Part shown: in pieces, positions 547 to 8,975 of the stretch
Layout: every line of letters begins with the position of its first letter
Numbering within the stretch: the stretch's first letter is position 1
Virus record (IMG/VR): IMGVR_UViG_3300047548_001361
Coordinates: 1-22,008 of that record
Reading direction: 5' to 3' (one strand)
Origin: a virus
DNA: 22,008 nucleotides
Translations under genes and position numbers: made by a program
The notes under the pieces: generated by a model
The model's database searches: none
Seen by the model: the letters and a program-made list of their open reading frames with translations, nothing else
Told to the model about the DNA's origin: nothing

Positions 547-619
547 ATCCATGTATTTTAATTGAGGTAGAATATCTGTACGAAAGCAGATGGTGGAGGT
601 TCGATCCCTCTCATGGATT
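547..619 (+). tRNA. tRNA-like gene with abnormal anticodon loop, isotype unassigned
   Basis: A 7-bp acceptor stem pairs ATCCATG (547-553) with CATGGAT (612-618). The T arm is canonical: GGAGG, loop TTCGATC, CCTCT (595-611). The D arm is TTTT, loop AATTGAGGTA with the GG pair, GAAT (556-573), weak because one pair is T-T and one T-G. The anticodon arm is TCTG(T)/(G)CAGA at 575-590. If T579 pairs with G586 the loop is ACGAAA, six bases. If not, it is eight bases. Neither gives the standard seven-base loop with U33 before the anticodon. The variable loop is TGGT. No CCA is encoded. It sits in the 108-base gap between two genes. It may be a real phage tRNA, a degenerate one or a tRNA mimic. Confidence 0.62.
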
Positions 620-4761: not shown

Positions 4762-5067
4762 ATGAAAGAAAAATTAAATTGCATGTGTTGCGAAATTGAG
4801 TTTGAAGGAGAACCTCCTCAAAGATGTTGTGATGGTTATATGTGTGGTTGTATGGGTCTACCTATTGAACCCATTATCTGTTCCGAAAATTGTTATCATG
4901 CTTTGTTATATCATAATAAATTCACACATTTTATAGAAGTGTGGCGTTATAAAGGAAAGTATATAACTGAAAATCCTAAACCAATTTGTGAGTTAGAAGA
5001 ATGCTTAGCCAAATCTTTAGAATGGGGTCTTCAAACAGTATATATTTTTAAAATAAAAAGGAAATGA
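4762..5067 (+). CDS. cysteine-rich putative zinc-binding protein
   Basis: 101 residues with eleven cysteines, ten of them in the first 44: C7-x-CC (9-10), CC (22-23), C28-G-C30, C40 and C44. The spacing, with CGCMGLP and CSENCYH pieces, suggests one or two compact zinc-binding knuckles followed by a mixed alpha/beta tail. I know such small Cys-rich proteins as recurrent unknowns in phages; no function can be given. It starts after the terminator-like hairpin, without a Shine-Dalgarno sequence, and its stop overlaps the next start by four bases. Confidence 0.75.
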   Translation: MKEKLNCMCCEIEFEGEPPQRCCDGYMCGCMGLPIEPIICSENCYHALLYHNKFTHFIEVWRYKGKYITENPKPICELEECLAKSLEWGLQTVYIFKIKRK

Positions 5068-5282
5068 AATATAAAATACTAAGATTGGTTTTCCTGCCTG
5101 TAAATAAGCATGAAACATACAAAGAAAAAGATTTGAACGCAAATCAGAAAAGCATTTGTGAGTTGTACAATTCAGAAGAAAATTGTGATGAATTTGAGAA
5201 TAAAGAAATCGCTATCAAAGCTGTAAAGATGCTGAAGTTAAAATGGCCCGCTGAATTATTCACTATTAAAGAATTTATATGA
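5064..5282 (+). CDS. hypothetical protein, 72 aa
   Basis: Unrecognised small protein: an N-terminal strand (YKILRLVFLP), a polar acidic middle and a helix KEIAIKAVKMLKLKW followed by ELFTIKEF. The final strand-like ELFTIKEFI resembles the end of small alpha/beta phage proteins of unknown role. It overlaps both neighbours by four bases, which supports it as a real gene. Confidence 0.65.
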   Translation: MKYKILRLVFLPVNKHETYKEKDLNANQKSICELYNSEENCDEFENKEIAIKAVKMLKLKWPAELFTIKEFI

Positions 5283-5506
5283 GAGATAAAATACTTGAAG
5301 AAGCAGGTTATGAAAACCGCGGAAACTATTGGGCAAAAGTTGAAAAAGGTATTTGTCATCGTGTAATGTTATTCAAAGAAATTGAATATTTACGTCTTAC
5401 ATGCACAGATTTATTAGCTAATGACGGTGAATTCTTGTATGATACAGGCAACTTGAAAATAAATGATGCTGAATTGATTTTCTTAATTAATATTCTGAAC
5501 AGATAA
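5279..5506 (+). CDS. hypothetical protein, 75 aa
   Basis: Small unrecognised protein, with an N-terminal helix (DKILEEAGYENRGNYWAKV) leading into strands and a C-terminal helix AELIFLINILN. It starts in a four-base overlap with the previous gene. An 11-base gap separates it from the next gene. No motif that points to a function. Confidence 0.65.
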   Translation: MRDKILEEAGYENRGNYWAKVEKGICHRVMLFKEIEYLRLTCTDLLANDGEFLYDTGNLKINDAELIFLINILNR

Positions 5507-5517
5507 AAGTACATTGT

Positions 5518-5964
5518 ATGCTCGTTAAAATTGAACAGGTTGTTTCTTTTGGTTTTAAAATAAGTTTCAGTGTTTTTCAAAATCAACTGCACATACGATT
5601 AGAAAAAGATGGTGAAGGGATTACACAGTGTTTGCCATTGCGTGAAGATCATATTAACGAAGATAAAGTTCAGAAGTGTATTGATTACATGTTGAACATG
5701 CTCCTTAGTCAACGTGTGCAAGACAGTTACCAAGGAGTTTCTGCTGATGATGTTCTTTATAAATATCGTGACGGTCAATTGTATTGGCATGGAAAAGATA
5801 AGATACCTGTTACACTGCAGGAAATGGATATTACAAGATTGAAAAGAACAAAGACCTGGCTTGAGAAAAACGAAGACATTAAAAATGAAGCTGTGAAAAA
5901 ATGGATTGTTTGCTTCAGCAATGAAATAAATTTACGAATGCTCAAAGATTTTAAAACCACATGA
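5518..5964 (+). CDS. hypothetical protein, 148 aa
   Basis: Unrecognised. The first ~40 residues look like a beta hairpin (QVVSFGFKISFSVFQNQLHIRLE) with a polar turn. The middle holds two helices (DKVQKCIDYMLNMLLSQ), then a strand pair around YKYRDGQLYWHGKD, and the C-terminal third is helical and charged. It overlaps the primase-helicase start by four bases, so its expression is coupled to that gene. A role in replication is only suggested by position. Confidence 0.7.
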   Translation: MLVKIEQVVSFGFKISFSVFQNQLHIRLEKDGEGITQCLPLREDHINEDKVQKCIDYMLNMLLSQRVQDSYQGVSADDVLYKYRDGQLYWHGKDKIPVTLQEMDITRLKRTKTWLEKNEDIKNEAVKKWIVCFSNEINLRMLKDFKTT

Positions 5965-8402
5965 AACTGAATATTGCAATTGGAAAATCGCGCTTAGATA
6001 AAAAGTGGAAGAATACAGAAATTGAATGGAATGACTTTGTAAAGCGTGTATCTAAAACTCACAGAACTGTTGAAACTGTTGATGAATACGCTTCTTTCAA
6101 ACGTGACCGGCAAGACGAGATCAAAGATGTGGGTGGCTTTGTAGGTGGTTATCTGGCTCAAGGCCGGCGCCTGGTGAGTAGTGTATTGCATCGTCAAATG
6201 ATGACTCTTGATGCTGATGAAGCTACGATTGACTTCTGGCAGAAGTTCTGTCTGCAATACAATTGTGAAGCACTTATCTATTCTACTCATAAGCATACAA
6301 ATGAGAATCCAAGATTTCGATTGGTGATTCCACTTGAAAGAGAAGTATTCCAAGATGAATACTACGCTATTGCCAGGCGTATCGCCGGTGATGTTGGAAT
6401 AGATATGTTCGATGCTACAGGTTATCAACCTCACCGTTTAATGTATTGGCCAAGTACATCATGTGATGGACATTTTGTGTTTGAACATCAAAAAGGAAAG
6501 TTCTTAAATCCTGATGATGTGCTTGCAAGATATGTTGATTGGACTGATGTGAGTGCATGGCCAATTGGAAAACGTGAAAAAAAGATAGCTGATCATTCTA
6601 TTAAAAAACAAGGTGAACCAAGTGAAAAGCCAGGTCTTATCGGTGCTTTCAATCGTGCATATACTATTGAAGAAGCTATAGAAAAATTCCTGAGTGATGT
6701 ATATGAAAAATCTGATATTAAAGATCGTTATACATATAAAGAAGGTTCAACTGCAAGTGGAGTAATTGTATATGACAATAAATTTATTTATTCACATCAT
6801 TCAACTGATCCTACAAATGGTATTCTTTGCAATGCATTTGATATGGTCAGACTTCATAAGTTCGGCATCAAAGATTCTGATGATGAAGAAATTCCTGTAA
6901 ATAAAAGACCAAGCTATCTTGCAATGAGTGAATTTGCAAGTAAAGATAAAACTGTTGCTGTTGAAATAGGACAGGCAAAATTAGATAAAGCTAAAGAAGC
7001 ATTTGAAGAAGCCGGTTTGGTAATTGATGATGAAGTGCCAGATACAAAGAAAGTGAAAGATGCTGATTGGCTTAAGAAAATGGATATTGACACAAAAGGA
7101 AATCTGCATAATACTTTAAATAATATTGCACTGGTGTTAGATCATGATCCCGCATTTAGTGGAAATTTAGTTTATGACGAGTTTGAAGGTTTAGCATTTT
7201 TCAAACGTGCTTTACCATGGCGGAAGATTTGCGAGAATCCTGGGTTAAGTGATAACGATCTTGCTAACATAGAAAATCACATTGAAAGGATTTATAAAAT
7301 AACGACAGGAAGTGAGAAGTTGAAAAAAGGTTTATCAATAATTTTTGAAAAGAACAAAATCCACAGTGTACGAGATTATCTTAGTAAAGTAAAATGGGAT
7401 GGTAAAAAAAGAGTTGATACTTTATTAATCGATTTCATGGGTGCTGAAGATTCAGAATACATGAGAGCAATAACAAGAAAAACACTTGCAGCATGTGTAG
7501 GAATAAAATTTGATAATATACTTACATTGGTTGGTGAAGAAGGTCAAGGTAAAAGTCGTTTGTTTGCAAAACTTGGAGGACAGTGGTTCAGTGATACTTT
7601 CAATCTGCATATGTTACAATCTAAAGAAGCATATGAGCAGATACAAGGTGTGTGGATAATAGAAATTCCGGAACTCTCAGGACTTGCAAAAGCAGAAGTT
7701 GAAAGAGTAAAAGGATTTATATCAGCTACACAAGACCGGTATCGTGGAGCATACGCAAGAATAACGGAAACAAGAAAACGACAATGTGTGTTTGTAGCAA
7801 GTACGAATTTGCGTGATTTTTTAAAGAGTCAAACAGGAAACAGAAGATTCTGGCCGGTAGAAACTTTTATAAATGAACCAAAATATAATGTCCATTTATT
7901 AAAGCAAGAGGATATAGATTTAATATGGGCAGAAGCTGTTATGATATACAATCAAGGTGAAACACTTTATTTAGAAGGTGAAGTATTAAAACAAGCTACA
8001 TTGATTCAAACAGAATTCACAGAAGAAAATCCTTTGATCAGCTTGTTTGAAGAATATCTTAGTATGGATATTCCGAAAAACTGGTATGATCTTTCAAGAT
8101 GGGATAAAATTGAAATCACTCAATTGAAAGAAAACAGAGATGACTATGTGAAAAGAAAACAAGTATGTGCACAAGAATTATGGGAGATTGCGATGGGTGA
8201 AAAAAACAAAATGACGATTTACGATTTGAAAAATATAAAACTTGCAATGAGTAAAATAAAAGATTGGCAACGTTCAAAAGACAATTTACGATTTGGAAAA
8301 TCATATCCAAGACAGCGCGGCGCGTATGTATTTAGTGGTACAGATGACCGGCTAAGTGGTACAAAAGGTGGTACAAGTGGTACATATGAACATTTATTGT
8401 GA
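5961..8402 (+). CDS. primase-helicase, VirE/VapE-type (AEP-like primase plus SF3-like ATPase)
   Basis: 813 residues in two parts. The N-terminal third resembles an archaeo-eukaryotic primase: MTLDADEA with D84 and D86 as the metal pair, then YSTHKHTNENPRFRLVIPL and QPHRLMYWPS. The C-terminal half is the VirE/VapE ATPase: GEEGQGKS Walker A at 525-532 (K531), Walker B-like IIEIPEL at 566-572, and a downstream FVASTN plus NRRFWPVE stretch typical of the family. It would open the origin and prime the DNA for the polymerase upstream. The last ~20 residues (SGT, GGT and SGT units) are encoded by repeat units that continue into the following non-coding gap, so the gene end doubles as part of the putative origin. 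It starts in a four-base overlap with the previous stop. Confidence 0.92.
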   Translation: MKLNIAIGKSRLDKKWKNTEIEWNDFVKRVSKTHRTVETVDEYASFKRDRQDEIKDVGGFVGGYLAQGRRLVSSVLHRQMMTLDADEATIDFWQKFCLQYNCEALIYSTHKHTNENPRFRLVIPLEREVFQDEYYAIARRIAGDVGIDMFDATGYQPHRLMYWPSTSCDGHFVFEHQKGKFLNPDDVLARYVDWTDVSAWPIGKREKKIADHSIKKQGEPSEKPGLIGAFNRAYTIEEAIEKFLSDVYEKSDIKDRYTYKEGSTASGVIVYDNKFIYSHHSTDPTNGILCNAFDMVRLHKFGIKDSDDEEIPVNKRPSYLAMSEFASKDKTVAVEIGQAKLDKAKEAFEEAGLVIDDEVPDTKKVKDADWLKKMDIDTKGNLHNTLNNIALVLDHDPAFSGNLVYDEFEGLAFFKRALPWRKICENPGLSDNDLANIENHIERIYKITTGSEKLKKGLSIIFEKNKIHSVRDYLSKVKWDGKKRVDTLLIDFMGAEDSEYMRAITRKTLAACVGIKFDNILTLVGEEGQGKSRLFAKLGGQWFSDTFNLHMLQSKEAYEQIQGVWIIEIPELSGLAKAEVERVKGFISATQDRYRGAYARITETRKRQCVFVASTNLRDFLKSQTGNRRFWPVETFINEPKYNVHLLKQEDIDLIWAEAVMIYNQGETLYLEGEVLKQATLIQTEFTEENPLISLFEEYLSMDIPKNWYDLSRWDKIEITQLKENRDDYVKRKQVCAQELWEIAMGEKNKMTIYDLKNIKLAMSKIKDWQRSKDNLRFGKSYPRQRGAYVFSGTDDRLSGTKGGTSGTYEHLL

Positions 8403-8679
8403 TATTTGAAGTGGTACAGTTTCTAAAAAAGTGTACCGATGTGAGTACCACCTAAACAACTCTAAACGAATCATTTATGTATTATAAAAATTTTATTGTA
8501 CCACTCAATGTACCACCTAAGTTGTTGATTTATACTATTCTATATCTTAGTGGTACAATATTATATATATTTAAAACATTACCTTCTATTAGACCATATT
8601 TAGACCATCTAATAGCTATTCGACGGTCTAATAGCCGGCCCTATATAGAAAACGCAAAAAAGTGTACCACTGTACCAGG
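8334..8679. repeat. AGTGGTACA iteron cluster, putative replication origin
   Basis: Twelve copies of AGTGGTACA or its complement occur in 346 bases. Forward: 8334-8342, 8355-8363, 8367-8375, 8376-8384, 8410-8418, 8549-8557. Reverse: 8432-8438 (partial), 8444-8452 (one mismatch), 8497-8505, 8509-8517, 8663-8671, 8671-8679 (partial). The first four lie inside the end of the primase-helicase gene, the rest in the non-coding gap before the VRR-NUC gene. Outside this cluster I found only one core TGGTACA, at 2234-2240. The clustered, bidirectional copies next to a replication initiator-type gene and AT-rich DNA fit an iteron origin. An operator array is the alternative. Confidence 0.7.
8586..8634. 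repeat. TTAGACC / CTAATAG inverted and direct repeats
   Basis: CTATTAGACC (8586-8595) and GGTCTAATAG (8625-8634) are an exact 10-base inverted repeat. TTAGACCAT occurs at 8589-8597 and again at 8600-8608, 11 bases apart, one helical turn. CTAATAG recurs at 8609-8615, and AATAGCTATT (8611-8620) is a perfect palindrome at the centre. This second repeat family lies within the iteron region and could be a second protein's binding site or an extrudable cruciform at the origin. Confidence 0.6.
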
Positions 8680-8690
8680 AAGCTGAAATT

Positions 8691-8975
8691 ATGGAAAATA
8701 GCATTGAAAAATATTTGAAACGTAAAGTTGAAAAGAATGGTGGAATATGTTTAAAATTTGTGTCACCAGGATATACAGGAGTTCCGGACCGGTTATGCAT
8801 ATTCAAAAATAAATTCTTTTTTGTTGAAACAAAAGATACAGGAAAAGAATTAAGACCAAGACAATTGTTTGTAAAAAAAATATTGGAATCATTTGGTTTA
8901 AAAGTTTATAAAGCAGATTCAAAAGAAATAGTTAATGAAATACTCTCCAAGGAATTATCAAACATACGGAACTAA
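8691..8975 (+). CDS. VRR-NUC domain nuclease
   Basis: 94 residues, the size usual for stand-alone phage VRR-NUC proteins of the PD-(D/E)xK superfamily. The catalytic core is visible: GVPD (G30-D33) and VETK (E46, K48), followed by LRPRQ (Q58) and a C-terminal helix-strand (VKKILESFGLKVYKADS). The N-terminal helix with E6 probably completes the active site. Stand-alone VRR-NUC proteins are thought to cut branched or flapped DNA during replication or recombination, and often sit directly before an SNF2 helicase, as here; the two genes overlap by 41 bases. A GGAAG sequence 12 bases before the ATG is a possible ribosome binding site. Confidence 0.92.
   Translation: MENSIEKYLKRKVEKNGGICLKFVSPGYTGVPDRLCIFKNKFFFVETKDTGKELRPRQLFVKKILESFGLKVYKADSKEIVNEILSKELSNIRN

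Follow-up and report, generated by a model that had tools for sequence, protein, structure and literature searches.

Gene content of the replication locus

The analysed sequence (hereafter the window) was an entire virus record of 22,008 bp, which is probably a fragment, and the word counts given for this phage cover that record. The genes were arranged in the order SSB (PF10991), PolA-family polymerase, MazG, VapE, a repeat array, VRR-NUC nuclease and SNF2 helicase, followed by terminase and tail genes; this gene set is a known phage replication module. The VapE-type primase-helicase, which is the proposed initiator, was encoded at 5961–8402 on the plus strand (813 aa; PF05272, 3.6e-67; phrog_256, 8.9e-288). 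The VRR-NUC nuclease gene (8691–8975, plus strand; phrog_93, 2.7e-22) forms the downstream boundary of the putative origin region, and the same gene was the downstream neighbour in most relatives. The VRR-NUC and SNF2 helicase genes overlapped by 41 bp (8935–8975).

VapE comprised an AEP primase N-terminus, a VapE-like AAA+ helicase (aa 474–687) and a winged-helix C-terminus. The N-terminal third was predicted to adopt an archaeo-eukaryotic primase fold (pLDDT 91) and matched the AEP domain of S-2L PrimPol (Z 10.3). Residues 369–788 matched PriRep1 (7PDS, E 5e-64), a protein solved with dsDNA and described as similar to vapE of D. nodosus. Residues 645–813 were modelled using AF2 as a winged helix (pLDDT 87), for which the C-terminus of PriRep1 was the best structural match (Z 14.2), with unrelated winged helices next at Z about 5. 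According to this model, the C-terminal winged-helix DNA-binding domain, the proposed iteron reader, spans aa ~734–790 (8160–8330, plus strand), and its beta-hairpin (wing) spans aa ~767–790 (8259–8330, plus strand; model strands 125–132 and 141–146). A Pfam scan of VapE returned the VapE-like domain and a weak DUF5906 match, and no RepA_N.

The iteron array

The preliminary description had reported a twelve-copy array reaching into the primase-helicase gene, and our recount confirmed it: when up to two mismatches to AGTGGTACA were allowed, twelve sites were located at 8334–8679, six on each strand. Seven of them were exact copies, and no exact copy was found elsewhere in the 22-kb record. Iterons 1 (8334–8342, exact), 2 (8355–8363, exact), 3 (GGTGGTACA, 8367–8375) and 4 (8376–8384, exact) lay on the plus strand within the VapE coding sequence, the last two forming a 9-bp tandem, and were followed by iteron 5 (8410–8418, plus strand, exact). 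The minus strand carried iterons 6 (ATCGGTACA, 8432–8440) and 7 (GGTGGTACT, 8444–8452), with two mismatches each, iteron 8 (8497–8505, exact) and iteron 9 (GGTGGTACA, 8509–8517). Iteron 10 (8549–8557, exact) was again on the plus strand, and iterons 11 (8663–8671, exact) and 12 (CCTGGTACA, 8671–8679) were on the minus strand.

The finer points of the description also stood. Three reverse copies were imperfect and the core GTGGTACA was exact in the other nine; 8367–8375 adjoined 8376–8384; and base 8671 was common to 8663–8671 and 8671–8679. The single core copy reported outside the array was recovered as well, with ten occurrences of TGGTACA in the array and one outside it (position 2234). The nine copies of GTGGTACA in the array segment compared with an expectation of 0.04 and a maximum of two among 2000 Markov segments, and the top count for any 8-mer was four in 1000 random segments. 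Across the whole window, 12 sites with at most one mismatch were found vs 3.1 ± 1.6 in shuffles.

The array of this phage was organised as a 9-bp tandem pair, inverted copies, an AT-rich spacer and a final inverted pair. The spacer (8521–8620; up to 82% A+T per 60 bp), a proposed unwinding element, lay inside the array ahead of the last inverted iteron pair and had iterons on both sides. GC skew, which rose monotonically over the window, was uninformative and gave no support for an origin at the array.

An imperfect palindrome, TTAGACCATCTAATAG/CTATTCGACGGTCTAA, was located at 8600–8631 inside the spacer. Spacer palindromes with perfect arms of at least 10 were detected in 14 of 87 loci vs none after shuffling, the shuffles being mononucleotide ones that ignore dinucleotide bias. 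A conserved spacer palindrome was rejected as a general feature, given that it was not general among the 87 loci. Perfect palindromes occupied the same place of the array in several Clostridium loci, for example TATTAGGCATA...TATGCCTAATA at 4950–5100 of L008.

Iterons translated into the VapE tail

The four copies within the gene were all in frame 0 and coded for SGT, SGT, GGT and SGT, as the preliminary description had stated. The VapE frame extends into the array, and four iterons therefore double as codons of a C-terminal tail, SGTDDRLSGTKGGTSGTYEHLL (8334–8399, plus strand), whose distal part was predicted to be disordered (pLDDT under 50 in the AF2 model, starting at aa 799). In most relatives the VapE stop fell a few codons past the wing, ahead of the array; the frame entered the array in this phage and in several others (L032, L094, L095, L096, L105, L025 and L111). 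At least one exact iteron core lay within the gene in 27 of 87 loci and at least two in 8 of 87, and the window had four. The VapE tails of relatives had no common sequence apart from the word-encoded part. Because of this, and of the disorder predicted for the tail in the window, the iteron-encoded tail is regarded as probably a by-product of an origin adjoining the gene. Iterons that also code for the tail of the initiator itself would represent an origin encroaching on its own gene.

Conserved position and diverged words among relatives

A total of 166 VapE loci, including the window, were collected from IMG/VR, GTDB genomes and named phages; an alignment-based search was needed, since a single-sequence search of IMG/VR with VapE gave nothing usable. 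A gap was scored as carrying an array if a single 8-mer occurred in it at least four times without mismatch, and more often than in every control window of equal length from that locus. Such a dense array lay between VapE and VRR-NUC in 110 of the 143 loci in which these two genes are at least 150 bp apart, counts that are not fully independent because some loci are near-identical prophages, and none of 11,612 control windows equalled it. The comparison of relatives proposed in the preliminary description thus had the outcome expected of a replication origin, with the position kept and the word diverged in these 110 loci, which supports the putative origin reading given there. By the strict definition, 33 of the 143 gapped loci had no array, several full records had none at all, and a local array was absent in all nine loci where VapE abuts VRR-NUC.

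The words varied between phages and included TGTCAACA, TGTTACCA, TGTCTACA, TGTTGCAT, TGTTTACA and TGTTTCCG, among others, with a loose common template of TGT-NNN-C. Neighbouring iterons on the same strand were most often 9 bp apart, both orientations were used, and in 64 of 87 non-redundant loci the A+T content peaked between iterons. On fuller records the word was concentrated in the array (8 of 8 copies in the 56-kb phage phiCDKH02, 8 of 9 in G001, 9 of 12 in G002 and 8 of 8 in G003), and the G002 record contained no copy of the first C. difficile word. Similar arrays followed vapE in a satellite of Streptococcus and in phages of Streptococcus and Paenibacillus, and sampling 398 genomes of a single phylum yielded further cases. 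Where a genome carried two VapE prophages, the words differed in all four array-bearing pairs, too few pairs being usable for a conclusion on compatibility.

Distant arrays with the same template were also detected: TTGTTTAC at about 42.7 kb in the Croceibacter phage P2559Y, about 11 kb from VapE; TGTTCACA in G027, about 2.7 kb downstream; and TTGTTTAY in G031, about 16 kb away. Such distant arrays without a local one fit a site that is read in trans by VapE, rather than a local transcription element.

Several further repeats and VapE relatives were recorded. P2559Y (L310) also carried about 11 copies of GAAACTCC/GGCGGAAAC at 4900–5500, where a putative capsid gene ends. The record of Phocaeicola phage BV739P1 (L332) opened with eight copies of GCAGAAGC (1–400), and no array adjoined vapE. 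The VapE relatives of L283–L288, L340, L343 and L344 mostly ended in YGPQ, with no array adjoining the gene. Bacteroides phage BF503P4 (L330–L331) had a VapE relative and no array detected anywhere in its record; it encodes dCMP hydroxymethylases, and its DNA may therefore be modified.

Natural exchange of the word in C. difficile phages

A natural exchange of words was observed among relatives from C. difficile, the VapE of which is ~47% identical to that of this phage. The DNA of L019 and L021 was about 100% identical both upstream, over more than 4 kb, and downstream, over about 1.8 kb, and diverged only from about −120 to +300 round the VapE stop, a segment comprising the last ~35 codons and the array. 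Within it, TGTCAACA was replaced by TGTTACCA in all nine copies, which occupied corresponding positions. The word of a third C. difficile group was TGTCTACA. L022 and L097 were about 5–10% different along VapE and nearly identical over the C-terminus and the array. The exchanged protein segment was the beta-hairpin of the winged helix, and the preceding helix, SREINDILKGLD, was the same in all three types.

Closely spaced short repeats, direct and inverted, in an intergenic region can be operators, and the array might accordingly be a multi-operator site for a phage repressor, or for a regulator of the nuclease/SNF2 operon or of the replication genes. The immunity region also differs between G001 and G002, and for this reason the comparison was made across 22 C. 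difficile phages. The VapE C-terminal type (last ~35 aa) agreed with the word in all 22, whereas the other common gene families, from about 13 kb upstream to 7 kb downstream, had alleles common to different words; those of the repressor, SSB, polymerase, nuclease and SNF2 helicase did not follow the word. Repressor allele 19 was found with both TGTCAACA and TGTCTACA, allele 33 with both TGTCAACA and TGTTACCA, and one word accompanied at least four repressors. The immunity repressor was rejected as the reader, given that the word did not follow its allele in this panel. Promoter-like sites at the array were also no more frequent than chance (3 found, 2.9 expected), and the homologues whose iteron-reading C-termini are established are initiators (PMC7581432). 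We consider an operator array highly unlikely.

The same panel singled out the C-terminus of the primase-helicase among nearby common proteins; the preliminary description had named the phage's own primase-helicase or another early protein as the putative reader. Under another explanation VapE would be recruited to the origin by a separate reader of the sites, either a host initiator or some other early protein of the phage, and many phages do use a separate origin-binding protein, such as lambda O. This arrangement is very unlikely here: no other gene common to the panel segregated with the word over the interval given above, three words within one host species are hard to explain by a host protein, and the C-terminus of VapE is itself a winged helix with homology to that of PriRep1.

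The exchange of a block round the VapE 3′ end between phages would be expected of a recombination hot spot, and a packaging or partition site was likewise weighed as a role outside replication. The array, however, went with the replication gene and not with the terminase, no ParA/ParB was found among the genes examined, and the concerted change of all copies together with the reader segment goes beyond recombination alone. We therefore regard a non-replication element as extremely unlikely.

One of the 22 phages, L176 (IMGVR_UViG_2512047057_000011), carried a chimeric array past its VapE stop at 5370, in which four TGTCAACA copies matching its own VapE were followed by three TGTCTACA copies of the other type. 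This is a recombination breakpoint caught within the array.

Covariation of words and VapE residues

Among pairs with more than 70% VapE identity, and with overall identity corrected for, word similarity best tracked residues 759–778 (partial r 0.51), an association that 0 of 500 permutations reached and that was significant family-wise; residues 779–796 were also high (0.41). With a 60% identity cut-off, the helicase window 579–598 ranked first and was family-wise significant, followed by 739–758. Over all, mostly distant, pairs, the correlation between word and C-terminus in a Mantel-type analysis was about 0.2, weak and unspecific, and per-column mutual information did not clearly favour any column. 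The 85,974 residue–base tests of a cluster-collapsed scan, none of which survived correction, were headed by Thr at residue 784 with AC at word positions 6–7; together with Leu at this residue and TGTTAC, this association provides examples of a candidate code. C-terminal columns made up 14 of the top 50 tests vs 8.5% of all tests, a modest enrichment. Only the close pairs, the cluster-collapsed test and the natural swap are informative.

Proposed origin and its mechanism

Taking these results together, we consider it very probable that the array is the replication origin of the phage, read by the winged helix of its own VapE, with the hairpin setting the word. Judged from the sequence comparisons, the reader of the word is most likely the C-terminal winged helix. 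Given the linkage of word and C-terminus and the homology to PriRep1, the origin would therefore work like those of the self-loading helicases of SaPI and SCC elements. We infer binding, hexamer loading, melting and origin firing, as well as the reading of its own word by the VapE of this phage, in the following form. VapE hexamers would bind the 9-bp iterons via the C-terminal winged helix, with the beta-hairpin determining which word is read; after loading at both flanks of the AT-rich spacer, they would melt it. VapE would then serve as the replicative helicase and prime through its N-terminal AEP domain, after which the phage SSB and the PolA-family polymerase would take over.

More tentatively, VapE phages that are otherwise identical may exchange a ~400-bp cassette of winged-helix hairpin and array, thereby changing origin specificity according to a partly readable hairpin code; we hold this to be possible but somewhat doubtful. 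The cassette exchange could partly reflect physical linkage. Its benefit would perhaps be escape from origin-directed nucleases or parasites, or avoidance of cross-use of origins.

Comparison with known replication systems

The preliminary description had likened this arrangement to the lambda O gene, in which the iterons lie inside the initiator gene. The comparison holds for the position of the sites but not for the mechanism, which is closer to the self-loading helicases of SaPI and SCC. O lacks a helicase and recruits host DnaB through P, whereas VapE has a helicase of its own, and here the sites enter only the 3′ end of the helicase-encoding gene. The alpha protein of phage P4 is a primase-helicase whose C-terminal DNA-binding domain reads short (octamer) iterons, a likeness to the arrangement proposed here; P4 differs in being a satellite replicon of a different host group.

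SaPI Rep and SCCmec Cch2 each use their C-terminal domain to recognise iterons situated immediately downstream of the gene encoding them (PMC7581432, which cites Ubeda 2007). The system described here resembles them in its homologous AAA+ helicase (the PriRep1 match), its predicted C-terminal winged-helix DNA-binding domain (similar in the model to the PriRep1 C-terminus), its iterons at the end of the initiator gene and its AT-rich segment inside the array. It differs in belonging to the main replicon of tailed phages with an AEP primase fused to the initiator, in having iterons that enter the initiator gene and are translated, and in having words that diversify and are exchanged together with the reader hairpin. 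In the RepA-ori modules of PLE in Vibrio cholerae, the DNA-binding domain and the iterons covary and swap as a module, as in VapE phages; RepA specificity was shown by origin swaps, and origin-directed nucleases may select for exchange (PMC8263062). PLE RepA, in contrast, belongs to the RepA_N family, has an N-terminal DNA-binding domain and no helicase or primase domain, and PLE has ~30-bp iterons and is a satellite rather than a phage.

The principle is thus known, both for an initiator helicase that recognises iterons at the end of the gene encoding it (SaPI/SCC) and for the modular exchange of reader and origin (PLE). The new elements are the spread of this organisation through VapE phages, the exchange of reader and word as a cassette, and the translation of iterons into the disordered tail of the initiator. 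No account of such an origin in VapE phages was found in the literature searched, in which subscription journals were thinly covered, so that a prior description is possible. The proposed reading would provide both an origin and an initiator for a phage replication module that is very common and whose key protein is still annotated as 'virulence-associated protein E', and it supports the view of VapE as a replication initiator. Near-identical phages with different pairs of reader and word offer a natural panel for studying how and why initiators change origin specificity.

The iteron TGTTTACA of several relatives (e.g. L027, L028 and L032) is identical to the forkhead motif of eukaryotes, and the winged helices that ranked next in the fold search included forkhead domains. 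This likeness of motif and iteron is probably a case of convergence.
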